A program made the translations under genes and the position numbers. Positions 28,875 through 46,582 of a stretch of DNA of 64,000 bases are shown piece after piece (position 1 is the first letter of the stretch; every line of letters begins with the position of its first letter). Under the pieces are notes generated by a model. It was given only the letters and a program-made list of their open reading frames with translations, was not told the DNA's origin and did not search any database. The stretch is from Pseudomonadota bacterium (GTDB lineage Bacteria > Pseudomonadota > Gammaproteobacteria > Burkholderiales > Rhodocyclaceae), in NCBI GenBank assembly GCA_018241725.1, contig JAFEDI010000146.1, positions 1-64,000 on the forward strand, written 5' to 3'.

Positions 28875-28950
28875 GCCGGTGTAGCTCAGTTGGTAGAGCA
28901 GCGCACTTGTAATGCGAAGGTCGAGGGTTCGATTCCTTTCACCGGCACCA
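28875..28950 (+). tRNA. tRNA-Thr (anticodon TGT)
   Basis: A 76-nt cloverleaf with encoded CCA. The acceptor stem GCCGGTG pairs with CACCGGC, the D arm is AGCTCAGTTGGTAGAGCA, the anticodon loop CTTGTAA gives TGT, and the T arm contains GGTTCGATTCC. Its 3' part (from 28905) is the left copy of the element attachment repeat, so integration left a complete tRNA. Confidence 0.97.
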
Positions 28951-28953
28951 ATG
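28905..28953 (+). repeat. attL: 49-bp direct repeat, 3' half of tRNA-Thr
   Basis: Identical to 45638-45686. It starts in the anticodon stem (ACTTGTAATGCG) and runs through CCA plus ATG. Confidence 0.92.
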
Positions 28954-28997
28954 AAATCAACGGCTTGGGCAGATCCTGCTGGGTAGGCCTTTTCGCT

Positions 28998-29020
28998 GGG
29001 CTAGCACCGGGCTAGCGCGG
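28998..29020 (+). repeat. Left arm-type integrase repeats
   Basis: GGGCTAGC occurs twice in tandem, separated by ACC, close to attL. The same word with small changes occurs at 45498-45554 by the integrase. Arm-site function is inference. Confidence 0.6.
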
Positions 29021-29077
29021 TGAGTGCGGCAAACGGTTTTTGTAGGCAATTCGCAACGATCAAAGCGCCAGCCAGAC

Positions 29078-29224
29078 ATGCATGGATTGTTAGGGATCGT
29101 CGTAATCTTGGGCTGTGTCTGTGCCGCTCTCTTGGCTGCAGTGTTGTTTTTCCGCGACATGAAACACAGCAAGAAGGCTGAGCAGCGCCGGCAGCAACTC
29201 GTTTCGCGCCTGCGACCGAAGTAG
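29078..29224 (+). CDS. Small single-span membrane protein (left copy)
   Basis: A 48-aa protein with one hydrophobic helix (about residues 3-24, LLGIVVILGCVCAALLAAVL) and a basic tail (EQRRQQLVSRLRPK). It is identical at 42 of 48 positions to the right copy at 45779-45925. No clear ribosome-binding site is visible; conservation of the frame at both sites supports translation. It lies 19 bp before the SRAP gene in both copies' order, so the two form a unit. I do not recognise the family. Confidence 0.65.
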   Translation: MHGLLGIVVILGCVCAALLAAVLFFRDMKHSKKAEQRRQQLVSRLRPK

Positions 29225-29243
29225 CCGTCGCCGGGCTGCTTTC

Positions 29244-29861
29244 ATGTGCGCCAACTACCGCCCGTCCTCCAGGGAAGCACTCCTGGCGTTCCCGTTACCC
29301 CCTCCGGACTTCGCCTACGGCGAGGCCTATCCAGGTTCCGTCGTCCCGATCGTCACGAACTTCGCCCCGCGCGTGTGGGTGCCGGCCTGCTTCGGGCTGA
29401 TTCCAGCATGGGCGCAGGATGCGAAGATCGCTCGTTCGACCTACAACGCCCGGACCGAAACGCTCGGCGAGAAACCTTCCTTCCGCGATGCCTGGACGCG
29501 CGGCCAGTTGTGCATCATCCCGGCCGAGGCCATCTACGAACCGTGCTACGAATCAGGGAAGGCCGTGCGCTGTCGGATCGAGCGGGCCGATGGCCGCCCC
29601 ATGGGTATCGCCGGAATCTGGGAGCGGCGGATCAAAGACGATGGCCTGCCGTCCTGGTCCATGTCGATGCTGACCATCAACGCGGACGGGCATCCGGTGA
29701 TGGGGCGGTTTCACAAGCCCGAGGACGAGAAGCGGTCGGTGGTGATTTTGCCGGACGAAGCATGGGGCGACTGGCTGCGGTCCAAGTCCGAAGCTGTGGC
29801 GAGCAGTATGCTTGCCATGTTCGAGCCCGAACTGGTGAGAGTGGCGGCAGATCCACGATAG
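29244..29861 (+). CDS. SRAP (SOS response-associated peptidase, YedK/HMCES-like) domain protein, left copy
   Basis: A 205-aa SRAP protein. Proteins of this family (YedK, HMCES) form a covalent crosslink with abasic sites in single-stranded DNA through Cys2, exposed after Met removal. The needed elements are here: MCANY at the start, asparagine in STYNARTET, glutamate in PAEAIYE and a histidine in RFHKPEDEK. The MCAN start differs from the usual MCGR. It is followed by nothing on the same strand. A diverged paralogue lies at 45956-46582, about 85% identical by eye over the first 100 residues and less after. Confidence 0.85.
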   Translation: MCANYRPSSREALLAFPLPPPDFAYGEAYPGSVVPIVTNFAPRVWVPACFGLIPAWAQDAKIARSTYNARTETLGEKPSFRDAWTRGQLCIIPAEAIYEPCYESGKAVRCRIERADGRPMGIAGIWERRIKDDGLPSWSMSMLTINADGHPVMGRFHKPEDEKRSVVILPDEAWGDWLRSKSEAVASSMLAMFEPELVRVAADPR

Positions 29862-31819: not shown

Positions 31820-32077
31820 TCAGCCGTGCAGCTCTTCCAACTCAGCCCGCGCCATCTCGGCCAACTGGTAGGCGCCGGCCAGCAGCGCCTCCATGTCGTT
31901 GATCGACAGCACCGCCAAATCCTTCCGCTCTGAAGCCAGCAGCGTGAAGTGCTGCGCGGCAAGGACGAGCGTGGTCGTAACGCTGGTGATGGCCCGGTAC
32001 ATCGTGCCGGCCTGCTCAGCGGTGAGGGTGACCGGCGCGCTGAAGTCCTGCCAGTGCTCTCTCGGGTGGGCGCTCAT
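31820..32077 (-). CDS. Hypothetical protein, fifth gene of the C4-controlled chain
   Basis: An 85-aa mostly helical protein (AEQAGTMYRAITSVTTTLVLAA, then MEALLAGAYQLAEMARAELEELHG). No family recognised. Its ATG overlaps the preceding stop (ATGA), so it is translationally coupled to the gene before it. The C-terminal helix pattern resembles that of the 116-aa protein in the same chain, suggesting distant relatives. Confidence 0.6.
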   Translation of the reverse strand: MSAHPREHWQDFSAPVTLTAEQAGTMYRAITSVTTTLVLAAQHFTLLASERKDLAVLSINDMEALLAGAYQLAEMARAELEELHG

Positions 32078-32310
32078 TGCTTCACCCCGCCTTCCTGCAT
32101 CTTCTCCAGGGTGGAGCCGGCGAAGTTCTCCATATCGCAGGCGACGGACCAGCCCAGGGCGGCCAGCTTGGCGGCATCGGAGAATTCCGGCGCCTTTTCC
32201 TTGATTGCCTGCAGCAGGGCGGCGAGCTGGGCGAATGCGTCGGCGCAGCTGTTCAGGCAGCCTTCCACGTCGTTCATGGGGATGGGCTTGAAGCCGGTGG
32301 TGGTGCTCAT
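32074..32310 (-). CDS. Hypothetical protein, fourth gene of the chain
   Basis: A 78-aa acidic helical protein beginning MSTTTGFKPIPMNDVEG, with a pair of cysteines (NSCADAF, VACDMENF). No family recognised. The start overlaps the stop of the 116-aa gene and its stop overlaps the next start; both are ATGA junctions. Confidence 0.6.
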   Translation of the reverse strand: MSTTTGFKPIPMNDVEGCLNSCADAFAQLAALLQAIKEKAPEFSDAAKLAALGWSVACDMENFAGSTLEKMQEGGVKQ

Positions 32311-32657
32311 GGTTGAGTCCTCCGTCCACGTGCGTCGCATTGTGCTTGTACCGTCCAACCGAGCAGGTCGTCGGCTCGTTCCCGTACCTGCTCGCCCAGC
32401 CACGCAAGGGAGTGAATCATCTGGGCTTGGCTCTGGATGCCATACAGCAGCGCCGACACGTCGGCAGGCGCGCGCAGCCATCCGCCGGTCTCGTCGCTTT
32501 CGACCAGTGCTCCCAGGTTGCCGCAGGTCGTGGCTAGGTTGCTCGCCATCAGCTGGGCGTCGTCGCTGGCGGAGTTGAGCAGGCCCAGTTCTTCAAGCGT
32601 CAGGTGGTCGGCCGCACGCTCCCACAGCAGGGAAACGGCTTCGTGGAGGGTTCTCAT
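32307..32657 (-). CDS. Hypothetical protein, third gene of the chain
   Basis: A 116-aa helical protein (MRTLHEAVSLLWERAADHLT, then LLYGIQSQAQMIHSLAWLGEQV). The pattern resembles small phage proteins of unknown role carried in early operons; I cannot name a family. It is coupled at both ends by ATGA overlaps. Confidence 0.6.
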   Translation of the reverse strand: MRTLHEAVSLLWERAADHLTLEELGLLNSASDDAQLMASNLATTCGNLGALVESDETGGWLRAPADVSALLYGIQSQAQMIHSLAWLGEQVRERADDLLGWTVQAQCDARGRRTQP

Positions 32658-32755
32658 GCTGCAGCCCTCCCGGCAAACGTCAGGCGGTAGGCCAGGGCTG
32701 CGCCCGTGAAGCGGCGCAACGTGCGGTACAGGGTGAGGCGGGTTCGGGCGCTCAT
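32654..32755 (-). CDS. 33-aa micro-ORF, second gene of the chain
   Basis: MSARTRLTLYRTLRRFTGAA opens a 33-residue basic peptide with an amphipathic helical pattern. Both ends form exact ATGA overlaps with the flanking genes, which is the best evidence that it is translated. It may be a real small protein or only a link that keeps ribosomes moving to the next gene. Confidence 0.5.
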   Translation of the reverse strand: MSARTRLTLYRTLRRFTGAALAYRLTFAGRAAA

Positions 32756-32946
32756 TTGGCCACCTCCCGCAGTTCGGACAGGGCCAGCTCGAAAGCGCTG
32801 ACGCGCCCTTCGTAGAAGGCTTTGCCAAAGCCGGTTTCCTTCTCGGCCTGCTGTCGGCTGTCGAGAAGCCGGGCCTCAAGGAACGTGATGGTGTCGGTGA
32901 GGGTGATGCGCTTGGGCGCGGCTGCGCCTGGGGAGGTGGTGTGCAT
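32752..32946 (-). CDS. Hypothetical protein, first gene of the chain (target of the C4-like RNA)
   Basis: A 64-aa protein with a helical body (LTDTITFLEARLLDSRQQAE, then FYEGRVSAFELALSELREVAK). No family recognised. An AGGAG ribosome-binding site lies 8 nt before the ATG. That site and the bases before it are complementary to two segments of the folded RNA just upstream, so translation of this gene, and of the coupled genes after it, is probably blocked by that RNA. In phage P1 the gene in this place is icd/ant; this protein shows no similarity I can recognise. Confidence 0.6.
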   Translation of the reverse strand: MHTTSPGAAAPKRITLTDTITFLEARLLDSRQQAEKETGFGKAFYEGRVSAFELALSELREVAK

Positions 32947-32954
32947 GGTGGTAC

Positions 32955-32969
32955 TCCTTGAGTGCGGTG
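32955..32969 (-). promoter_or_regulatory. Antisense target over the ribosome-binding site
   Basis: On the minus strand CACCGCACTCAAGGA ends in the Shine-Dalgarno sequence. CACCGCAC is complementary to 33060-33067 and CTCAAGGA to 33031-33038 of the folded RNA upstream (two 8-bp perfect matches). Confidence 0.7.
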
Positions 32970-32996
32970 CGTTCTCCCGCAACCCCACGCCAATGG

Positions 32997-33076
32997 GGTG
33001 GCAGGAACCGTGCGGCGTTGGCGTACCGGTCTCAAGGACACCGGCGAGCCCGAAGGCTCCACCGCACGGCCCCACC
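32997..33076 (-). ncRNA. C4-like antisense immunity RNA (predicted)
   Basis: The minus-strand RNA folds as a branched structure. An outer stem GGTGG/CCACC (33076-33072 with 33001-32997) and an 8-bp stem CCGTGCGG/CCGCACGG (33069-33062 with 33015-33008) enclose two hairpins: GAGCC-TTCG-GGCTC, with the very stable UUCG loop, and CCGGT-GTCCTTGAG-ACCGG. The second loop is antisense to the ribosome-binding site of the gene 50 bp downstream. Phage P1/P7 C4 RNA and P4 CI RNA share this plan: a structured RNA in the leader of the operon it silences, with two antisense segments. Membership in that family is inferred from structure and position. Confidence 0.65.
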
Positions 33077-33107
33077 ATTAAACAGGCGTGACCATGCAAC
33101 CGATATG

Positions 33108-33133
33108 AAAAAAGCCGCAAAAGTGTATGCGGC
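33108..33133 (-). terminator. Terminator in the leader before the C4-like RNA
   Basis: On the minus strand GCCGCA (33133-33128) and TGCGGC (33119-33114) form a stem followed by TTTTTT (33113-33108). With the promoter at 33194-33223 it would give a short RNA of about 80 nt unless read through. Confidence 0.7.
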
Positions 33134-33193
33134 CTTATCGGCCTTGAGAGTTCGGGACGCCAATCCCGCGCCCCTCTGTCTCGGGGCTTTTTC

Positions 33194-33223
33194 AGTATCG
33201 GCGGGTGCCGAGATGAATGTCAA
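33194..33223 (-). promoter_or_regulatory. Promoter of the C4-like RNA and small-gene chain
   Basis: TTGACA (33223-33218) and GATACT (33199-33194) on the minus strand are 18 bp apart. The expected start is near 33187. Confidence 0.6.
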
Positions 33224-33311
33224 GTGGCACGTTTAACTGAGTTAGCCGAGGTGCCATGGTAGCGTCGTATTTTTGAAAGCCTGATCTGTTTGGTTTTGGG
33301 AGATGTCGCTG

Positions 33312-34325
33312 ATGGTCGACTTAGAAGAAGTAAAAAGAATTGTTGAGTTGCTTGAGCAAACTACGAGCCTCTCTGTAGTGAGTGCTTTTCTAAAGGGGAA
33401 AGGCCTTCATCATTCGGCTGGGAGTTGGGGTAATTTGCTTGAGAAACGGATTATTCCGTATGTTCAAGAATACGCCATTGCGGTTGATGAATTGATCGGG
33501 CTTTTGCGTAATGCTGAGGAGTCCGGGGGGCAGCATGTCTTTATTTATCAGTGCTCTGAGGATGTTGCACTGAGTATTATTGATAGGTCCAATGTAAAGG
33601 CTGCGCTTGAAAAAAATGGCCTGGATCATTTGCTGGTTAAGCCGCTTGTCCTTGAACAGCCAGATACTCCGCAGCTTGTTGACGTTAGATGGGAGGTTTC
33701 AGGAATTGACACCGCGCTGATTGTTAAACAGGTCGAGCGGCGTGTTTATTCAAAGTTTGTGGGTACTGAGCCGCATGGAAATCAAATTCACAAAGTGTAT
33801 GAGCAGGTTCGTGAGCGTGCTGTTAATGTGGCGAAGTTGCATAGGTCTGGTTTTTTGGAGCTGAGAATCGCGCTTCACAAAAACTCCAGCAAATATGAAG
33901 ATGATGTTTATAGATTCTTTAAGGCGATTGAAGGGATAATTCCTCCTTCCTCATTTAGAGAGGTTTCTCTAGGTGTGGCAAAGAATAGGATATGGACTGA
34001 AAGGAAGGCGTTGAGTCATCTTATTCGATATAGTGACTCAACCTTGAGAGATGAACGTGGGAATGTGCTGCGAGCTGCCACAGGCTCTGATGTTAGTGAT
34101 TTGAAGGATAATGATGCAGTTGCTGGCAGTCTTGATTATTTGCTTTCCAATGACAAGACTGCATATTGCCATGGTTCAAGTTTTTGGTTTAGGAAAAATG
34201 ACCACCTGGCAAACGACATTCGAGTGACTTTAGATGGTGAGCCGAATGAGTATGCTCTTACGTCTAAGTGTAGCGCGGAGGAGTATGAGTATGTCCTCAG
34301 TAAAATTAGACTCCTTAATAAGTGA
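33312..34325 (+). CDS. Hypothetical protein, first gene of the AT-rich cassette
   Basis: A 337-aa soluble protein of no family I recognise. The start at 33312 (MVDLEEVKRIVELL) has GGGAG 9 nt upstream; an ATG at 33303 abuts that site and is less likely. The N-terminal 60 residues are helical, a central part is mixed alpha/beta, and a His/Lys/Tyr-rich stretch (RIALHKNSSKYEDDVYRFFKAIE) follows. No transmembrane segment or nuclease motif is obvious. Base composition is clearly more AT-rich than the flanking phage genes, a sign of separate transfer. It overlaps the next gene by 35 nt. Confidence 0.7.
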   Translation: MVDLEEVKRIVELLEQTTSLSVVSAFLKGKGLHHSAGSWGNLLEKRIIPYVQEYAIAVDELIGLLRNAEESGGQHVFIYQCSEDVALSIIDRSNVKAALEKNGLDHLLVKPLVLEQPDTPQLVDVRWEVSGIDTALIVKQVERRVYSKFVGTEPHGNQIHKVYEQVRERAVNVAKLHRSGFLELRIALHKNSSKYEDDVYRFFKAIEGIIPPSSFREVSLGVAKNRIWTERKALSHLIRYSDSTLRDERGNVLRAATGSDVSDLKDNDAVAGSLDYLLSNDKTAYCHGSSFWFRKNDHLANDIRVTLDGEPNEYALTSKCSAEEYEYVLSKIRLLNK

Positions 34326-34668
34326 GTTTCCTGAGGAAGAGGGGGCGGCAAGGCGGCTTATTGATTATTTGGAGTCTGGCGATAAGAGTAACCATAGTGT
34401 CCGTGAGTTGACAGTTCAGAGATTGTTCGACCTTGTGCATCCATCTTCTCAGCGGGTTTTGGCCAAGATGTTGGCACGGCTTACGGAGCAAGGGGTTTTG
34501 CGAAGAATAGTCCGAGTTGAGTCTGAAGCTCATGGAGGTATTGGAGACTTTGATTCTTTAAGCGATATCCCTCTTGTTATGTTTGATTTTCGCCTCGGGC
34601 GCGACGTAGAAGTGCGGTTAGATCAAGTGCGCCTGATTTATAGAGTCCAAATGGATCAAGTGGGTTAA
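34291..34668 (+). CDS. Hypothetical winged-helix-like protein, second gene of the AT-rich cassette
   Basis: A 125-aa protein. The middle (VRELTVQRLFDLVHPSSQRV then MLARLTEQGVLRRIVRVES) has the spacing of a winged helix-turn-helix, followed by an acidic strand-rich tail. GGAGGAG lies 7 nt before the ATG at 34291 (an ATG at 34285 is also possible), inside the end of the previous gene, so the two are coupled. It could be a regulator or an adaptor between the first protein and the hydrolase; both are guesses. Confidence 0.65.
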   Translation: MSSVKLDSLISEFPEEEGAARRLIDYLESGDKSNHSVRELTVQRLFDLVHPSSQRVLAKMLARLTEQGVLRRIVRVESEAHGGIGDFDSLSDIPLVMFDFRLGRDVEVRLDQVRLIYRVQMDQVG

Positions 34669-34670
34669 GT

Positions 34671-35582
34671 ATGTCTTTGTTAAGTGCTGACATGCATTCT
34701 CTGGAGACGCTTCCTGCTCTGGCAATGAGCAAGCTGGAACAGGTAAAAAGCCTCTTGTCTTCAATATCTGATCCGGCGGATCGAGAGCTCGCGGAGACAA
34801 TATTCTTTCTTGGGCACGCCTTGGGATCCGAGAGGAGCTCGGTTAAAGAGTCAATAGTCGTTCTCGTTCATGGTATTCGGACGAACGCAGAGTGGCAAGG
34901 TAGGGTGGTAAAGCTTCTTGGGGATGCTGGTTTTAAAAACACAGTCCCTTTAGGGTATGGATTCCTTGATGCCTGTCGGTTTTGGTTTCCGTTTCTTACG
35001 CGACGAGGACCTATTTCTAAAATCGCACGCGACTTGAGGAGAATAAGGAGTGATAATGAAGGGGTGAATATTTCTATTGTGGCCCATAGCTTCGGGACCT
35101 ATATCCTAAGTGAGATTCTTAAAGAGGAAACTGATATTGTTTTCCATAGAATTCAGCTGTGCGGGTCAATTATAAATTTGAATTATCGATGGGATAAGGT
35201 AAAGGCTCAGGTCCGAGGGTGCATCGTCAACGATGTAGGAACAAGTGATGTGTGGCCAGTTCTAGCTAAGGCGCTTTCTTGGGGGTATGGACCCAGTGGA
35301 ACGTTTGGGTTCAAGAGGTATGGCCTGACTGATCGGTATATAAAATGTGGTCATAGTGATTTCTTTGATGATGAGCATGTAAAGAAATACTGGCTTCCGT
35401 TCTTGATTGACGGGCAGGTTGTGCAGAGTGAGGTGTCAAAAGAGGATAAGGCAAGTTATTGTTTGTCTCTTTTGTCGATTTTGCCGATCAAGATGATTCT
35501 TGCTTTTTTATTAGTTTCTTATTTTTTTGGGGTTGGGGATTTGGTTGAAATGGTTGGTGGTGCATTTCGATCTTTTTTGTGA
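34671..35582 (+). CDS. Predicted membrane-anchored alpha/beta hydrolase, third gene of the AT-rich cassette
   Basis: A 303-aa protein with an alpha/beta-hydrolase core: the HGIR oxyanion-hole turn after a VVLV strand (residues 62-70), the nucleophile elbow AHSFG (Ser140), a candidate acid (Asp188 or Asp193) and His228 in GHSDFF. A C-terminal hydrophobic helix (about 266-288) would anchor it to the membrane. A lipase or esterase acting at the membrane is the natural reading. Such effectors occur in abortive-infection systems, but that role is inferred from layout. The start is 2 nt after the previous stop. Confidence 0.72.
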   Translation: MSLLSADMHSLETLPALAMSKLEQVKSLLSSISDPADRELAETIFFLGHALGSERSSVKESIVVLVHGIRTNAEWQGRVVKLLGDAGFKNTVPLGYGFLDACRFWFPFLTRRGPISKIARDLRRIRSDNEGVNISIVAHSFGTYILSEILKEETDIVFHRIQLCGSIINLNYRWDKVKAQVRGCIVNDVGTSDVWPVLAKALSWGYGPSGTFGFKRYGLTDRYIKCGHSDFFDDEHVKKYWLPFLIDGQVVQSEVSKEDKASYCLSLLSILPIKMILAFLLVSYFFGVGDLVEMVGGAFRSFL

Positions 35583-36530: not shown

Positions 36531-37661
36531 TCAGGCCCCGGCGTTGCTCACGACGCCGCGGTAATCCACGGCGGACACGCCGAAGTCGTGGCGAACCTTG
36601 AAGCGGGTGCCATCGACGGAGAAACCGGTTTCCCGCTCAAGCACGGGCTCTTCGTTGCCATCGAGGAATGCGACCTCAAGGACGGGGGCTTCCACGGGAT
36701 TGGCAAAGCTGTAGCGGCGCGTTCCAGTGAGGCGCGGGGAATCAACGATGTCGGCGTACAGGCCGCGAACGGAGTTGGGACGGCGGTCGCCCGCGGGCTT
36801 GGTCGCGAGTTCATTGAACTCGGCCCCGTTCACCTCGATGGCCTTGGCACGCAGGCCGGCCGGAACGAGCAGGACGGACGGCTGGAGCGCGAGGTAGTCC
36901 CCGCTGCCGGGTTCCTTCTGCTGGGTCATCAGCACGCGGTCCGCGTCGACGGAATCCTGGGACAGCGCGGCACTGGTGCCGATGTTCCCGTGGTTGGCAT
37001 GGAACAGCGTGTAGCCGTCGTCCAGGACCGGGCCAAGGCCAGAATTCAGCAGCAGGATCGAATAGACGTCGTTCTCGATGGTACGCGCGGCGGAGCGGCC
37101 GAGCTGGGCCGACAGCCCCATGAAGGCGCCCGCATCATCGTTGATGATGGCCTGGCGGGACAGCGTGATGATCAGCCCCTTGGTGCCGATCCGGACCCGG
37201 GCCCGTTCGCTATCCGGAATCGTGCCATTCACGAATTCGCCCAGCTCGTTGACCGGCTGCAGGTTCTGCAGCGCAGCCAGGCGGTAGCGCGGATGGTCGC
37301 GGAAGTCGGACACGGCTCCGACGGCGCAGAAGCGGCGCCAAGTGTCGGCCGCAATCGCATAGGCCGCCTGCAGCGTCTTGTGCATCGCGTTTTCCAGCAG
37401 GATCGGAAAGTCGCTGGTGGCTTGCGTGAAGGCAGCGCCGACGATCTCCATCTTGTCGCGGCCGCGATGGTCCCAGCCGGCGCGGTCCAGCGACGCCCGG
37501 GCGAGATCCATCAGGCTGTCACCGCGATACGGGTTGCTGGCCATGGAGGCGCGGACCTCGGCCGAGGCGACACCTGTGCGCACCATCAGGGCTGCGGCAA
37601 CGGCATCGCGGCGCTTGTCGGTCTCGTCTTCGATGGTCTGGATCTGGTTTGCAGTAGGCAT
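36531..37661 (-). CDS. Phage major capsid protein (Mu-like protease-capsid fusion family, capsid part only)
   Basis: A 376-aa capsid protein corresponding to the C-terminal part of the prohead protease/major capsid fusions of some Mu-like phages: YRGDSLMDLARASLDRAG, TSDFPILLENAMHKTLQ, NELGEFVNGTIPDS and ITLSRQAIINDDAGAF. The protease half is not present upstream; instead a coiled-coil gene precedes it, and AAGGAA lies before the ATG, so the shortened form starts cleanly rather than being a ragged truncation. It could package element DNA into capsids, as in satellites that keep their own capsid gene, or be a remnant. Confidence 0.82.
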   Translation of the reverse strand: MPTANQIQTIEDETDKRRDAVAAALMVRTGVASAEVRASMASNPYRGDSLMDLARASLDRAGWDHRGRDKMEIVGAAFTQATSDFPILLENAMHKTLQAAYAIAADTWRRFCAVGAVSDFRDHPRYRLAALQNLQPVNELGEFVNGTIPDSERARVRIGTKGLIITLSRQAIINDDAGAFMGLSAQLGRSAARTIENDVYSILLLNSGLGPVLDDGYTLFHANHGNIGTSAALSQDSVDADRVLMTQQKEPGSGDYLALQPSVLLVPAGLRAKAIEVNGAEFNELATKPAGDRRPNSVRGLYADIVDSPRLTGTRRYSFANPVEAPVLEVAFLDGNEEPVLERETGFSVDGTRFKVRHDFGVSAVDYRGVVSNAGA

Positions 37662-37674
37662 GTCGATGATTCCT

Positions 37675-38220
37675 TCAGGACAGAATGGTGGTCTTGCCGG
37701 CAGCCATTGCCGCGGCGGCTTCTTCACTGGTGATGTCCGGGAAGCAGTCCGAGACCATCGATTCCCAATCCACGCAGAACGGGGTCATGTTGCTATTGGC
37801 GGTCAGGCCGAAGATCTCGACGAGAGCGGCGCGGATCTTCTTGTCACCGGCAATGCGCGCCCTGATCGGTGCGATCAGCTCTTCGGAACGGGCTCGAAGC
37901 GCCGCGTTGTGGGCGTGGGTCGCCGCGTAAACCTCTTGATCGATCTTCGGTTGAACGTCGCGGGCGGCCTCGCTGACCTGCTGCTTTTCTTTCAGGCGCT
38001 CTCGGCTGGACTCCATCGCCGTTCGGGCGGCCATCACGTCCTTTTCGTTGGCGAGCCCGCGGATATACGCGGCCTGCACCTCATGCATGCGGGCGGTTGC
38101 CTCGACGATCTCCGTTTGGAGGGCCGTAATTTCGGACGCCGACTGCTCGACGATGGTTTGGGCCCGGGCACGTTGTGCCTCGAGATCCTTCAGGGCTTTG
38201 AGGGTGTCGATGGGTTTCAT
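37675..38220 (-). CDS. Coiled-coil protein upstream of the capsid gene
   Basis: A 181-aa protein, almost all helix, with heptad-like Leu/Ala spacing over residues 1-100 (TLKALKDLEAQRARAQTIVE) and a small C-terminal domain containing VDWESMVSDCFPD. No family recognised. Position just before the capsid gene, 13 bp away, suggests a scaffold-like or head-assembly role; that is inference from order only. Confidence 0.55.
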   Translation of the reverse strand: MKPIDTLKALKDLEAQRARAQTIVEQSASEITALQTEIVEATARMHEVQAAYIRGLANEKDVMAARTAMESSRERLKEKQQVSEAARDVQPKIDQEVYAATHAHNAALRARSEELIAPIRARIAGDKKIRAALVEIFGLTANSNMTPFCVDWESMVSDCFPDITSEEAAAAMAAGKTTILS

Positions 38221-39172: not shown

Positions 39173-40552
39173 CTAACCATCAAAACCGCTCCTACGGCCT
39201 TTTCTTTCGGATTGCGCTGCCACGGGGTAGGGGCCCTCATGATCGGTGAGGCGCATCAGCGGGCCGTCGAAGGAGAGCAGGCATTCGCCGGTCGGACCAT
39301 TGCGGTTCTTCCGGACCAGCAGATGGGAAAGGCCTTCCCACTCCGGGGCGTCCCTGTGCATGGACTCACGGTGGAGCATGGCCACGATGTCCGCATCCTG
39401 CTCGACCTCGCCCGAGTCGCGCAGGTCGGCCAGGATGGGCTTCTTGTCCAGTCGCCCATCACTGTTCCGGTTGAGCTGGGCCAAGGCGATCACTGGCACC
39501 TGCAGTTCCTTGGCCAGGGCCTTCAGTCCGCGGGAGACGGAGCCGACTTCTTGCGCCCGGTTGTCGCCTGTGCCGCGCATCAACCCGAGGTAGTCGATCA
39601 CCACCAGGCCAAGGCCGTGAGTGCGTTGGATGCGGCGGGCCTTGGCGCGGACGTACGCCACGGAGACGAACGGCGTGTCGTCGATGAACATCGTCCACGC
39701 CGCGGATGCCGCGGTCGCATCGCTCATCTGCTGCCAGTCCAGGGGATCGCCTGTTCCCGCGCGCTGGGCCTGCACCGTGACACCGGAGCGGGCGGCCAGG
39801 ATGCGGGAGGCGATGTCCTTGCTGCTCATCTCCAGCGTGAAGAACACCACCGAAACACCCGCAGCTGCTGCATGAGTGGCGATGTTGCAGCCGGCGACGG
39901 TCTTGCCGACGCTGGGGCGGGCCGCAATGATCACCAGTTGCCCAGGCTCCAGTCCGCCGGTCATCTCGTCGAAGCGTTGAAAGCCCGTCGCCAGGCCGGC
40001 CAGGCGGCCGCCACGTTCCCGGCGGAGATCGATGTCCGCCAGCACGTCGCACAGGGCGTCCTGCAGGCGAACGGGATCGCTGTCCGTCCGGTCCAGCAGG
40101 GCCAGCATCCCGGCCTCGGCGTCGGCCGCAATCTCGGCGGGCGTCCGTCCGGCAGGGGTGGCGCAGGCCGCCAGCACGTCGGCGCCGATCTGCTGCAGCC
40201 CGCGCAGGGTTGCCCGCTGGCGGATGGTCTCTGCGTACTGGCGGACGTTGCTGGCGACAAAGCCGCTGTCGGCCAGCTCGGCGAGGTATGCGAAGCCGCC
40301 GGCCTGTTCGCCTTCGCGGCGAGCCTCCAGCGTGCTCCAGACCGTCAGCAGATCCACGGCGCGGCCGGCATCGTGCAGGGCCTTGGCTGCCGAGAAGATC
40401 AGGCGATGGTCGGCACGGTAGAGGTCGCCGACGCGGACTGCGCCCTCTATGCGGTCGAGTACCCGGGCGCCGTCGCAGAGGATCGCGCCGAGCAGACCCT
40501 GTTCCGCTTCGAGGGAGTGGGGCGGTAGGTTGCGTAGGTCGGGGGCGTTCAT
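39173..40552 (-). CDS. DnaB-type replicative helicase
   Basis: A 459-aa DnaB-family helicase. The N-terminal domain begins NLPPHSLEAEQGLLGAIL; the RecA-like C-terminal domain has Walker A ARPSVGKT (211-218), the LEMSS motif, Walker B LVVIDYLGL, and the RDSGEVEQDADIV arginine-finger region. It unwinds the fork at element replication. Its ATG overlaps the initiator-like gene stop by 4 nt, the lambda O-P or initiator-helicase arrangement. It resembles helicases of phages more than the chromosomal copy would, which is inferred from context. Confidence 0.9.
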   Translation of the reverse strand: MNAPDLRNLPPHSLEAEQGLLGAILCDGARVLDRIEGAVRVGDLYRADHRLIFSAAKALHDAGRAVDLLTVWSTLEARREGEQAGGFAYLAELADSGFVASNVRQYAETIRQRATLRGLQQIGADVLAACATPAGRTPAEIAADAEAGMLALLDRTDSDPVRLQDALCDVLADIDLRRERGGRLAGLATGFQRFDEMTGGLEPGQLVIIAARPSVGKTVAGCNIATHAAAAGVSVVFFTLEMSSKDIASRILAARSGVTVQAQRAGTGDPLDWQQMSDATAASAAWTMFIDDTPFVSVAYVRAKARRIQRTHGLGLVVIDYLGLMRGTGDNRAQEVGSVSRGLKALAKELQVPVIALAQLNRNSDGRLDKKPILADLRDSGEVEQDADIVAMLHRESMHRDAPEWEGLSHLLVRKNRNGPTGECLLSFDGPLMRLTDHEGPYPVAAQSERKGRRSGFDG

Positions 40553-41346
40553 GCTGCGGCCCTTCGTGCCTGTTCGCCGGCGGTTGTCCATCGGGCGTTT
40601 TCACCCTCCTTCAGGTACCAGAGGTTGAACCAGTTGCGTTTGACGGCGTTGCGATAGTGCGCTCGCCAATCCTTCTGGGTCGAATCCCTTCCCAGGAACT
40701 GGGCTTTGAACTCAGCCCAGGCTGCGACAAGCATCTCCTCGCTGATCCCGACCTTCTCCGCGTAGTCGAAGATCGGATCGTCACCATCGATCGGTTTGAT
40801 GTTCTGCTGTCTGCAGTCCTCGAGGAAGCTGCGGAGCGTTTGTGCGTTTCTCCGTCGTCGCTGCTTGGGGGCTAAGGGGGTATTGGTTTGTTCACTGGTT
40901 TCTTCTTTGCGTGTAGCCGATTCGGCTACCGTTGAAGTCGCCGATTCGGCAACCGTTGCCGATGGGGCTACCGTTGCCGAATCGGCTAGGGGCATGCGTG
41001 TAGCCTGATCGGCAACCGTTGCCTGTTGGGCTACCGTAGCCGATTCGGCAACCGTTGCCGGATAGGCGACGGTTTGGGGCACATGGATGGTGTAGCGGGT
41101 TGCCTTTGAATGGCCGCCCTTGCCATCTTTTGTGATCCACCCCAGCGCCTCAAGGCAGGTTGTCGCGCTCGATACATTTGCAATATGCACACCCGACCGC
41201 TCGGCGAGTTGCTGCCGGCGAGGCCAGCAGGTCAGATTGCCGGGGGTGCAGAAACTGAGCAGGGCACCGAGAACGCGCAGCTGTTCAAGCGTGAGCCTGC
41301 GATCCGCCCAGACCTCATTCGGAACGACCGTGAAAGGAGTCGTCAT
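40549..41346 (-). CDS. Replication initiator-like protein with iterons in its gene
   Basis: A 265-aa protein. Residues 5-88 form a winged-helix domain (EVWADRRLTLEQLRVLGALL, SGVHIANVSSATTCLEALGW). Residues 91-145 are built from repeats of TVAESA, encoded by eight 18-bp DNA repeats. The C-terminal part has a conserved-looking DWRAHYRNAVKRNWFNLW segment found in phage replication proteins before a helicase gene. The arrangement parallels lambda O, whose gene contains the origin iterons. The initiator role is inferred. Confidence 0.75.
   Translation of the reverse strand: MTTPFTVVPNEVWADRRLTLEQLRVLGALLSFCTPGNLTCWPRRQQLAERSGVHIANVSSATTCLEALGWITKDGKGGHSKATRYTIHVPQTVAYPATVAESATVAQQATVADQATRMPLADSATVAPSATVAESATSTVAESATRKEETSEQTNTPLAPKQRRRRNAQTLRSFLEDCRQQNIKPIDGDDPIFDYAEKVGISEEMLVAAWAEFKAQFLGRDSTQKDWRAHYRNAVKRNWFNLWYLKEGENARWTTAGEQARRAAA
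40916..41074. repeat. Eight 18-bp iterons, likely replication origin of the element
   Basis: Consensus GCCGATTCGGCAACCGTT occurs at 40916, 40940, 40958, 40976 (degenerate), 41003, 41021, 41039 and 41057. Most are directly adjacent; small spacers break the array at 40934-40939 and 40994-41002. The 18-bp phase keeps the reading frame of the host gene. Confidence 0.75.
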
Positions 41347-42442: not shown

Positions 42443-42526
42443 TACTACGTCAGGCCGCTAGGCGTACTACGTTTGGCGGCCTGACGTAGTACGTTTGGCC
42501 GTTAGGCGTACTACGCGTGGCCGCTA
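42443..42526. repeat. Palindromic and direct repeats upstream of the replication run
   Basis: A perfect 16-bp inverted repeat (42443-42458 with 42476-42491, TACTACGTCAGGCCGC) is interleaved with TAGGCGTACTACG direct repeats at 42459 and 42503, 44 bp apart. GTACTACG words occur four times in all. A multi-site operator is the likely meaning. Confidence 0.7.
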
Positions 42527-44127: not shown

Positions 44128-45477
44128 TCAGGCCTTCCTGCGGGCCTTCGCCAATGGCAGGACATCTGCGCCATCCTTGAGGCCGGCCGCTTCCAGCATT
44201 GCCGCGGTGGCGGTGTTCACCGACTGGCGGATCGGGTCGAGGTCGAGGCGCGCATAGATCGCAGTGGCCTGGTGCGTCTTGTGGTTCAGGCTCTTGCCGA
44301 TGATGGCCAGGGATGCGCCGGTCTTTGCCTGCCAACTCCCCAGCGTCCGGCGCAGGTCGTGGATACGCAGGTCGGTCATGGCAAAGTCGGCAGGGTCGAT
44401 CCCTGCCGCCTGGGCTTGTGCGTGATATCGCTTTTCTGCCTTGGCGAGTCCTCGCGCGAGCAGGGCTTCGGACTCGGCCTGGGCCGTGTCGTCCAGTTTG
44501 AGGGCGTCCAGCAGGCGGAACAGGCTGGCAGTGCGCAGTATGGTTGCCCACGCCTTTTTCGGCTCCACCAGATGCCCGGTCTTGCCGGTGCCGGGGAAGA
44601 CGAAAGGCGAAGTACCTGCGCGCTCGCGGCGGGCCTCCAGCACCATGACGGCCTCCGGGGAGAGCGCGACATTTTGGGGGGTGCCGTTCTTGGTCTTGCT
44701 GATACGCCACACGGCGCCAGGCAGGTCGAGGTCGCGCCAGGCCATCGCCTGCACGTTGGAGCGACGGGCTCCAGTCAGGAGGGAGAGCAGGAAGTAATCA
44801 AGCTGTCCGGATCGTGCGATGGCTTCGAGCAGGTACGGCAGTTCGAAGGCTTGGGCGAAGCGATCGCGAGACGCTGGCAGATTCTTCTGCACGCGGCTGG
44901 CTGGGTTAGGGCCGTTGAAGATCTCTTGATCCGCCATGAATGTGAAGACCGCCGACACGACGGCCACTGCCCGATCCGCCTGGGCTTCGCTCTTGGTGTT
45001 GGCCTTCCGTTGGATGGCCTTCACGTCAGAGCGCTCGATCTGGGACAGTTTCTTGCCCGCGATCGAGCCCATGTAGAGGCGTAACACGTCCTCGTAGTCG
45101 CGCTTGGTGCTGTCCGCCAATGGGGTGCCATCGCGCTTACGTTTGCCCGCCAGGAAGGTCTGGAAGGCCTCGGCGAAGGTGGGTTCCCCTCGGACCGCGC
45201 GACGGGCTGCGGCAGGGTTCGCGCCGCTCGCAAACTCGCCAAGGATTTTTGCCGCCTCGGTGCGTGCTTGCTCCACGGTCATTTCAGGAAACGCACCCAG
45301 CTTCACCCAAGCCATGCCCGCGCCTGACCGTTTGATGACGTAGAAGGTGCGTGTGCCGTTGGAGGTGACGCGCATAGCGAGCTTTGGGACTTCGGTGTCG
45401 TAGATCGTTAGCCGTTTGCCTGCCTCGGGGAGTGGGTAGGACAGAAGGGCAGTCTTCGAGAACTTCAGATTTGCCAT
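44128..45477 (-). CDS. Tyrosine-type site-specific integrase (P4 family)
   Basis: A 449-aa integrase with the N-terminal DUF4102 arm-binding domain, a SAM-like core-binding domain (about 100-200) and a catalytic domain with Arg238 (TGARRSN), His373-x-x-Arg376 (HDLRRTLG), His399 (LNHK) and nucleophile Tyr408 (AIYAR). This subfamily integrates islands and P4-like satellites into tRNA 3' ends, matching the tRNA-Thr repeats here. Its start is 160 bp from the right attachment repeat, with arm-type repeats in between. Confidence 0.95.
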   Translation of the reverse strand: MANLKFSKTALLSYPLPEAGKRLTIYDTEVPKLAMRVTSNGTRTFYVIKRSGAGMAWVKLGAFPEMTVEQARTEAAKILGEFASGANPAAARRAVRGEPTFAEAFQTFLAGKRKRDGTPLADSTKRDYEDVLRLYMGSIAGKKLSQIERSDVKAIQRKANTKSEAQADRAVAVVSAVFTFMADQEIFNGPNPASRVQKNLPASRDRFAQAFELPYLLEAIARSGQLDYFLLSLLTGARRSNVQAMAWRDLDLPGAVWRISKTKNGTPQNVALSPEAVMVLEARRERAGTSPFVFPGTGKTGHLVEPKKAWATILRTASLFRLLDALKLDDTAQAESEALLARGLAKAEKRYHAQAQAAGIDPADFAMTDLRIHDLRRTLGSWQAKTGASLAIIGKSLNHKTHQATAIYARLDLDPIRQSVNTATAAMLEAAGLKDGADVLPLAKARRKA

Positions 45478-45637: not shown

Positions 45638-45686
45638 ACTTGTAATGCGAAGGTCGAGGGTTCGATTCCTTTCACCGGCACCAATG
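45638..45686 (+). repeat. attR: 49-bp tRNA-Thr fragment
   Basis: Identical to 28905-28953. The 5' half of the tRNA is absent here, so it is not a tRNA gene. Confidence 0.92.
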
Positions 45687-45730
45687 GATTCAAAGATTTA
45701 GGCCGATCCGGGTGGGTCGGCCTTTTCACA

Positions 45731-45751
45731 GGGGTTACGCCGGGGTTACGG
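45731..45751 (+). repeat. Relict arm-like repeats outside the element
   Basis: GGGGTTAC occurs twice in tandem (45731 and 45742) at the place equivalent to the GGGCTAGC pair beside attL, but with a different word. This suggests the end of another island with a different integrase. Confidence 0.45.
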
Positions 45752-45778
45752 TTCAGTCAAACTCGCCCGATCATGGAC

Positions 45779-45925
45779 ATGCATGGATTGTTGGGGGTCG
45801 TCGTCATCTTGGGCTGTGTCTTTGCTGCCATTGCGGCGGCGGTGTTGTTTTTCCGCGACATGAAAAACAGCAAGCGAGCCGAGCAACGCCGACAGCAACT
45901 CGTTTCGCGCCTGCGACCGAAGTAG
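45779..45925 (+). CDS. Small single-span membrane protein (right copy)
   Basis: A 48-aa protein (MHGLLGVVVILGCV, LFFRDMKNSKRAEQ) with one transmembrane helix and a basic tail; 42 of 48 residues match the left copy at 29078-29224. An ATG two codons earlier is an alternative start. It again precedes an SRAP gene, here by 30 bp, and lies the same distance from a tRNA-Thr 3' end. Confidence 0.65.
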   Translation: MHGLLGVVVILGCVFAAIAAAVLFFRDMKNSKRAEQRRQQLVSRLRPK

Positions 45926-45955
45926 CTGGCGCCGTTGGTGCTCCAGGCTGCTTTC

Positions 45956-46582
45956 ATGTGCGCCAATTTTCGCCCACCCTCCCCGGAAGCGCTTTCGGCC
46001 TTTCCGCTGCCACCGCCGGATTTCGCCTACGGTGAGGCCTATCCCAGGTCTGTCGTTCCCATCGTTACGAACTTTGCGCCGCGTATCTGGGTGCCAGCCT
46101 GCTTCGGTCTGATTCCAGCCTGGGCCAAAGACGCGAGGATCGCTCGCTCCACCTATAACGCCCGCACGGAAACCCTCGCAGAAAAGCCATCCTTCCGTAA
46201 TGCCTGGACTCGCGGCCAGCTGTGCATCATCCCGGCGGAGACTCTCTACGAGCCGTGTTACGAAACCGGGTGTTCCGTACGCTGGCAGATTCGACGACAG
46301 GATGCCCGACCGATGGGGATTGCCGGGCTGTGGGAGCGAGTGGTGCAAGGCGACGGGCAGGTCGTCTGGTCGATGACCATGCTGACGGTCAATGCAGATG
46401 GGCACGCTCTTTTCGAACGGTTCCACAAGCCCGGCGACGAGAAGCGTGCTGTCGTGATCCTGCCTGATGGTGCCTGGGGGGCGTGGCTGAGGGCGCGTTC
46501 GGAGGATGAAGCGAGGGCGCTATTGACGCCCACGGAGCCCGCTGGACTGATCATTGGTCCGGCGCCCCGCGAGGGTAAGTAG
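45956..46582 (+). CDS. SRAP domain protein, right copy
   Basis: A 208-aa paralogue of the SRAP protein at 29244-29861, with the same MCAN start (Cys2), STYNARTET, PAETLYE and RFHKPGDEK elements. Differences concentrate in the last 90 residues, so the two copies separated some time ago. The predicted activity, covalent capture of abasic sites in single-stranded DNA, is inferred from the family. It is outside the element repeats and ends 1 bp from a convergent lipoprotein gene. Confidence 0.85.
   Translation: MCANFRPPSPEALSAFPLPPPDFAYGEAYPRSVVPIVTNFAPRIWVPACFGLIPAWAKDARIARSTYNARTETLAEKPSFRNAWTRGQLCIIPAETLYEPCYETGCSVRWQIRRQDARPMGIAGLWERVVQGDGQVVWSMTMLTVNADGHALFERFHKPGDEKRAVVILPDGAWGAWLRARSEDEARALLTPTEPAGLIIGPAPREGK

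Follow-up and report, generated by a model that had tools for sequence, protein, structure and literature searches.

The window (the whole 64,000-nt stretch of DNA that was analysed) comes from a Zoogloea genome, here called G000. It contains a 16.7-kb tRNA-Thr island, within which a C4 RNA lies between an IsrK-like leader and five genes coupled by ATGA overlaps. An exact 49-nt repeat pair (28905-28953 and 45638-45686) delimits the island, which has the following landmarks:

28875-28950 (+): tRNA-Thr, the integration site
45638-45686 (+): right attachment site, by sequence an exact 49-nt copy of 28905-28953 (3′ half of tRNA-Thr)
44128-45477 (-): tyrosine integrase (PF00589, E 4.4e-15)
39173-40591 (-): DnaB-like helicase (PF03796, E 8.4e-86)
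36531-37727 (-): phage major capsid protein (PHROG 4523, E 2.8e-107; PF25209, E 4e-50)

The other island proteins include HTH_36/DnaT, Mor-like and minor tail Z proteins. Thirteen island open reading frames (ORFs) outside the operon were searched with Pfam, and neither a terminase nor a portal was among them; the island looks, from its gene content, like a small phage-derived or satellite element. Related capsid genes occur at 22 viral loci; the stretches examined at 6 of these gave no Rfam match.

Several further features of the island were seen. Positions 28905-29780 and 45638-46492 are duplicated (75% over 889 nt), and cover the 3′ half of tRNA-Thr, an intergenic part and one gene, which we take to encode an SOS-associated peptidase; a copy of the host attachment neighbourhood apparently forms part of the island. 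Three iteron-like repeats with 22-nt spacing lie at 42443-42524, near the HTH_36/DnaT genes, and repeats at 40913-41085, within an HTH_36/DnaT gene, encode a SATVAESATVA-like run. Three plus-strand genes at 33303-35582, one of them weakly alpha/beta hydrolase-like, occupy the interval between the C4 operon and the capsid gene and are possible cargo or defence genes.

The C4 RNA, its targets and the operon

The features of the C4 locus are given below in the direction of the minus strand; promoter, terminator, targets and C4 segments were recognized from sequence.

33194-33223 (-): promoter-like TTGACA-18-GATACT, sigma-70-like
33108-33187 (-): IsrK-like leader RNA with a1 and b1 (RF01394, 34.3 bits, under the gathering score of 50)
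33157-33163 (-): a1 target TTGGCGT, in the leader
33142-33149 (-): b1 target TCTCAAGG, in the leader
33111-33136 (-): intrinsic terminator-like hairpin, leader/C4 interval
32994-33082 (-): C4 antisense RNA (Rfam RF01695, 74.2 bits, E 1.3e-12 with 64 kb scanned; fold z -4.66)
33074-33076 (-): GGT, 5′ foot of the main C4 stem, candidate RNase P-type site
33031-33038 (-): b′ hairpin loop TCCTTGAG
33018-33024 (-): a′ single-stranded segment ACGCCAA (role assigned over 108 codes)
32987-32993 (-): a2 target TTGGCGT, immediately 3′ of C4
32955-32962 (-): b2 target CTCAAGGA, which includes the orf1 Shine-Dalgarno
32752-32946 (-): orf1, 64 aa (82% identity over 49 aa to orf1 of locus L083)
32654-32755 (-): orf2, 33 aa (ORF with ATGA overlaps)
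32307-32657 (-): orf3, 116 aa (relatives in two other Zoogloea C4 operons, E 2e-8 and 1e-5)
32074-32310 (-): orf4, 78 aa (47% identity to a gene in a C4 operon of genome G007)
31820-32077 (-): orf5, 85 aa (ATGA overlap)

The preliminary description of this DNA had read the RNA as C4-like. The Rfam covariance model bears this out, its 74.2 bits lying above the curated gathering score of 45, and the RNA, judged by its sequence, is a true C4 antisense RNA. The fold reaches -52.2 kcal/mol, and 0 of 200 shuffles were equally stable. The two hairpins first drawn for it, one with a UUCG loop at 33054-33051 and one reading CCGGT-GTCCTTGAG-ACCGG, are exactly as described. The loop at 33031-33038, which had been called antisense to the next Shine-Dalgarno region, was placed exactly and is the conserved b′.

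Both C4 segments have targets on either side of the RNA. The b′ loop (TCCTTGAG, 33038-33031(-)) is the exact 8-nt complement of b2 (CTCAAGGA, 32962-32955(-)), and CCTTGAGA at 33037-33030 pairs b1 in the leader (33149-33142) exactly over 8 nt; this upstream target is absent from the earlier text. The a′ segment (33024-33018) pairs both a2 (32993-32987) and a1 (33163-33157), with 7 exact nt each. A different second segment had been proposed at 33060-33067. Its 8-nt match is real, GTGCGGTG at 33067-33060(-) pairing CACCGCAC at 32969-32962(-) with base 32962 common to both noted targets, but this is not a conserved target and the segment sits in the main C4 stem; the true second segment is a′ at 33018-33024. 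We rejected the stem strand as a general second antisense arm: 4 codes out of the 108 distinct ones, the window's among them, have a run of at least 6 between it and the pre-Shine-Dalgarno sequence, compared with 1.3% of swapped pairs, and over these codes the mean run is 3.65 with the own partner and 3.49 with swapped ones.

The leader region (33105-33210) has a fold z of -4.22. Its score of 34.3 bits with the isrK model RF01394 compares with 50 required, and with the c4-a1b1 model RF03163 it reaches 14.5 bits, under the gathering score of 46.7.

Downstream of C4, the five coupled genes (64, 33, 116, 78 and 85 codons) that had been proposed are real, with four successive ATGA overlaps at 32755-32752, 32657-32654, 32310-32307 and 32077-32074. 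That their output would be unfamiliar, with no recognizable icd or ant, also holds: orf1, orf3, orf4 and orf5 have no significant match in Pfam, PHROG or NCBIfam, and none to antirepressor or icd families. The window orf1 resembles the C-terminal half of the L083 protein, which heads a C4 operon in genome G014; the N-terminal half of the L083 protein is DUF3077 (E 3.3e-8). Two further Zoogloea C4 operons start with DUF3077 proteins (L055, E 1.8e-7; L102, E 1.7e-5).

On the family, layout and partners observed here, and on the co-variation and duplex energies described below, we consider it highly probable that the window feature is a C4 antisense lock on the five coupled genes. We infer promoter use, processing, silencing, a decoy role and the function of the proteins within this lock. 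Transcription would start from the promoter at 33223-33194 and run through the IsrK-like leader (a1, b1), the terminator, C4 and the five coupled genes. C4 would be excised from the read-through transcript, as in P1; an RNase P-type GGW site is reported for C4 RNAs of P1/P7 and Acinetobacter baumannii in the accessible text of PMC5320573. Its b′ loop would then mask the orf1 Shine-Dalgarno region at b2, with a′ binding a2 just upstream, and with orf1 untranslated, the four genes coupled to it would be silenced along with it. The leader repeats both targets and the short terminated RNA is therefore probably a decoy, which, when in excess over C4, would free the operon. Together, a′ and b′ would form the address of each C4.

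All the partners lie inside 210 nt of one transcript, and the duplexes might instead form in cis, like structures A and B of Gifsy-1, so that C4 would be no free antisense RNA; alternative folds of a single transcript are described for isrK (PMC4825925, accessible part). We find such a cis switch unlikely, as C4-like RNAs of A. baumannii far outnumber the upstream part in reads, which the available text of that study reads as processing (PMC5320573), and the GGT motif is retained in the window C4.

C4 units and their pairing code in Zoogloea

The window's C4 is one of 18 C4 RNAs over the gathering score in G000, compared with none in 14 control genomes. A scan of the genus found C4 in 18 of 23 genomes, with 78 matches, 76 of them over the gathering score, and with 18, 17 and 15 in three of the genomes. 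Fifteen of the 18 in G000 are dispersed 0.7-kb units made of a promoter, a leader, a terminator, C4 and then a gene for a conserved protein of 86-101 aa (~90 aa). Fourteen of them have a leader peptide (16-48 aa) ahead of the protein gene, with a 4-nt overlap; in the remaining one, C140, the protein starts directly after b2. Homology among units is limited to about -170 to +540 around C4 and ends abruptly, and a block like the window's promoter opens the conserved stretch of the other units too.

Pfam searches (E 1e-10 and 1e-8) of 20 ORFs neighbouring 10 of the 15 units matched 14 and gave no match for 6. The matches were to histidine kinases, MFS, LysR, methionine sulfoxide reductase, alpha-2-macroglobulin, AAA_21, reverse transcriptase and others, and no integrase or capsid stood beside the units among these 20 ORFs. 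We also considered the units as recently hopping cassettes and set the idea aside: one unit's apparent move between species fits a local deletion equally well, and an empty site or target duplication was not shown.

The ~90-aa protein has no significant match in Pfam, PHROG or NCBIfam (three members searched), and all 47 sequences of its alignment A2 searched against the PHROGs gave the same result. A search with one member of the A1 type (L015) against 50,697 phage and 72,556 plasmid records gave no match. An anti-repressor PHROG match of one member (E 0.28) was discarded as not significant, like its other weak PHROG matches, and identification by fold was uninformative (AlphaFold2 pLDDT 83.5; best Foldseek E 2.3 in PDB and 0.53 in BFVD). 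Pooled dN/dS is 0.11 (range 0.04-0.33; 16 chosen pairs, covering 12 of the 15 G000 units), and the protein is therefore maintained by selection.

In two tandem units of G000 (L010; C4:22231 and 24311), the protein genes show 96-100% identity in 50-nt windows, the leader and C4 show 62-84%, and neither code part is shared; the coding part may have undergone conversion, or the codes may have been rapidly rewritten once the unit had been duplicated. A solo unit at G014:C49:12349-12962 has the promoter region and the protein gene and apparently lacks most of C4 (a gap between two matches). A reverse-transcriptase gene (PF00078) lies ~0.6 kb past the protein gene of another solo C4 unit (L013:8553-9833).

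One of the 18 C4s of G000, C128:44628, is clearly decayed, with a1, b1 and b2 lost, and fragments of the unit protein gene exist. That the window's C4 is itself such a relic with no present function is very improbable, as its four duplexes and four gene overlaps are intact.

To read the pairing code, we assembled 141 C4s, 78 of them from the genus and 63 from elsewhere in the order (12 genomes). Of these, 129 could be parsed with the arm pattern, the 12 unreadable ones being dropped, and they yielded 108 distinct a′/b′ codes. A match was a Watson-Crick run of at least 6 for a and at least 7 for b, and 200 target swaps served as control. Own a1 was matched in 103 of the 108 codes, compared with a swapped mean of 16.1 (max 24), and own a2 in 102 (13.6, max 22); for own b1 the figures are 88 (2.0, max 7) and for own b2 90 (4.0, max 11). 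Between 5 and 20 of the 108 thus miss a given own match at the set length. In Zoogloea, b2 usually lies on the Shine-Dalgarno, about +26 to +34 past C4, and co-varies. The a′ core often ends in CAA and b′ usually has CCT, and part of the match is therefore dictated by the Shine-Dalgarno.

The codes also separate units of the same genome. No two of the 18 C4s of G000 are identical in both code parts. By predicted duplex energy, and among C4-linked targets of the same genome, the own target is the strongest for 17 of 18 C4s in G000, 15 of 15 in G006, 16 of 16 parsed in G014 and 13 of 14 in G121; the corresponding counts for the own leader target are 17 of 18, 15 of 15, 14 of 16 and 14 of 14. Two tandem units of G014 are nearly tied, less than 1 kcal/mol apart. 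Ordered pairs in which a C4 recognizes both targets of another unit number 0 in G000, G006 and G014, compared with ~5 expected (a hand calculation that takes a and b as independent). This is a weak sign, because the three genomes share orthologues and the count over 11 genomes with at least 4 parsed C4s is near expectation; with 7 such ordered pairs there and ~8 expected, we rejected a depletion of shared codes within genomes.

The covariation in relatives by which the antisense reading was to be judged is found in this own-versus-swapped pairing and again between species. We compared 24 pairs of units from different Zoogloea species whose flanks are conserved on both sides (at least 400 bits each). 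Six have the same code and 18 have changed in a, b or both; 17 of these 18 changed pairs keep all four duplexes on both sides (G-U allowed), and codes therefore change in place, with the partners changing together. The 24 pairs are not independent: they represent 9 sites, and a single six-genome group, possibly with one shared element, supplies 14 of the pairs (13 of the 18 changed). Outside this group there are five changed pairs, three of which are solo-unit pairs with a alone changed (G000 C42/G006 C11; G000 C4:64662/G006 C706; G000 C4:64662/G014 C71:213824).

Because nearly every C4 of G000 has a different matching code, each probably locks its own small gene set alone. The 18 C4s could alternatively be a repertoire that confers immunity to C4-bearing phages or islands entering the cell, the downstream genes being incidental, which is one of two ideas in the accessible text of PMC5320573. 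C4 of P1/P7 gives immunity according to the same source, and the window is a C4-bearing island in this host. However, the gene downstream is intact for 15 of the 18 C4s and is under purifying selection (the pooled dN/dS above), and 17 of the 18 RNAs favour their own target among the C4-linked targets compared, and we regard a repertoire of this kind as quite improbable.

C4 sets in other genera

Beyond the genus, C4 is present in 44 of the 300 genomes scanned in the order, the window's own among them (42 pass the cut-off), and in 62 of the 398 scanned in the phylum (60 pass it); with 14 and 10 candidates scored per genome, respectively, copy numbers from these scans are minimum values. Four chosen genomes, counted in full, gave 24 (G590), 22, 14 and 15 (G604; 11 over the cut-off). 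In the genomes with 24 and 22 C4s, eight next-gene proteins were tested: six score above the Pfam cut-off for DUF3077 (E 7.5e-33 and 4.4e-35) or DUF6124 (best 3.4e-25), one is just under the cut-off and one has no match. The one next-gene protein tested from the 14-C4 genome is Bro-N, with PHROG antirepressor matches, and the one tested from G604 had no match. DUF3077 and DUF6124 are related (hhalign 94.9%). A single superfamily for all C4-controlled short proteins was rejected, as the Zoogloea protein joins neither DUF3077/DUF6124 nor the group of the window's orf4 (2-5%).

We read 30 of the 75 C4s in the four genomes, one of these loci (L220) being evidently misplaced: a1 was matched in 29, a2 in 20, b1 in 18 and b2 in 14. 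In all 7 C4s read in G604 and in 4 of 5 in G277, a1 was matched without a2. Loci there (for example L205, L217 and L183) have a matched leader (a1, often b1) and an unmatched ribosome-binding site, possibly an attenuation-only form. Ribosome-binding-site silencing is therefore not universal in the C4 family, and a leader-only form seems to exist, as far as these loci can tell from their letters.

This pattern bears on the window as well, where C4 may act mainly on a1/b1, as P4 CI does in its attenuation, and set the read-through of the terminator at 33136-33111, with a2/b2 secondary. A terminator-like hairpin separates a1/b1 from C4, a1/b1 are matched as well as a2/b2, a1 is kept without a2 in the G604 and G277 loci just described, and P4 CI reportedly works on seqA and seqC (PMC4825925, accessible part). 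Pure attenuation would not need b2 in Zoogloea to lie on the Shine-Dalgarno and to co-vary, as it does, and we treat attenuation as a serious possibility that we nonetheless do not favour. Our preferred reading is still a lock at the ribosome-binding site.

Relation to known antisense switches

C4 of phages P1/P7, CI of P4 and isrK are already known, and C4 is a phage immunity switch. As a control, we read phage P1 in the same way, using fixed segments in place of the arm pattern (the P1 arms are CTGG/CCAG): its C4 scores 68.8 bits, a1 and a2 are both TTGACAG, b1 is GTTAGTG and b2 is GTTAGTGA, giving four matches in the same order as in the window. The accessible text of PMC5320573 has C4 of P1/P7 acting as an antisense RNA on downstream genes in this way. 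The P1/P7 and window RNAs (RF01695) are alike in fold, in a′ and b′, in a1 and b1 upstream and a2 and b2 downstream, and in b2 lying on the Shine-Dalgarno. The window differs in that its genes are not recognizable icd/ant, its C4 sits in a small tRNA-Thr island and 17 more copies occur in the genome. The C4-like silencing layout of the preliminary description thus stands, with P1 alike; 'immunity' goes further and can only be inferred, because orf1, orf3, orf4 and orf5 match no antirepressor or icd family significantly.

The upstream half of the locus recalls isrK of Gifsy-1 (RF01394), where, in the part of PMC4825925 available, the read-through isrK transcript is not translated until short IsrK activates it. 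Common to both, by the same account, are a leader with a terminator, a processed RNA downstream and a short ORF coupled to the next gene; unlike Gifsy-1, the window leader reaches 34.3 of 50 bits, and no AnrP/AntQ match was found. By analogy, STnc1160, the processed RNA 3′ of isrK, may be a C4 RNA, and trans activation by IsrK would then be explicable as titration. Open sources report isrK and C4 as one transcriptional unit in Burkholderia cenocepacia (PMC4603805, accessible text) and list them next to each other for Xylella and B. cenocepacia (PMC12189769 and PMC4603805, accessible text). CI of P4, with seqA and seqC, is likewise an antisense RNA of an integrative element with targets on both sides, but it acts by transcription termination as reported in the available part of PMC4825925; the likeness is drawn from published descriptions.

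A further close system is Group 1 of A. baumannii AB5075 (Weiss 2016), for which the accessible text of PMC5320573 reports 21 C4-like RNAs, 15 of them full-length, with apparent processing at GGW and with targets left open. Many C4-like RNAs per genome, variable a′ loops and apparent GGW processing are features that this account has in common with ours; that text describes no units in which the leader and the ribosome-binding site are targets matched in cis and each unit has its own coupled small gene. In the open-access literature, we found no title or abstract on cis-matched C4 codes or on C4 preceding DUF3077 or DUF6124. What is new here is the existence of dispersed, privately coded C4 units with their own small genes; the window C4 itself is of a known kind.

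With moderate confidence, we propose that a number of proteobacterial genomes carry domesticated sets of short, dispersed C4 cassettes, in which C4, a leader decoy and a ribosome-binding site share a private address (7 nt for a, 7-9 nt for b). Each would lock, without cross-talk, its own small protein of the DUF3077/DUF6124 type or of a lineage-specific kind, and at fixed sites the address would be replaced as the C4 segment and its two targets change in concert. If this is true, the targets of the A. baumannii C4-like RNAs would be their own leaders. Private codes would give a concrete reason for loop variation in multi-copy C4-like RNAs, and, with codes that have changed naturally at fixed sites, the pairing model can be tested directly on existing sequences. 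With as many as 24 copies in one genome (G590), C4 RNAs would form a large natural set of antisense switches that are predicted not to cross-react, and C4 is a likely regulator of DUF3077 and DUF6124, two families of unknown function.
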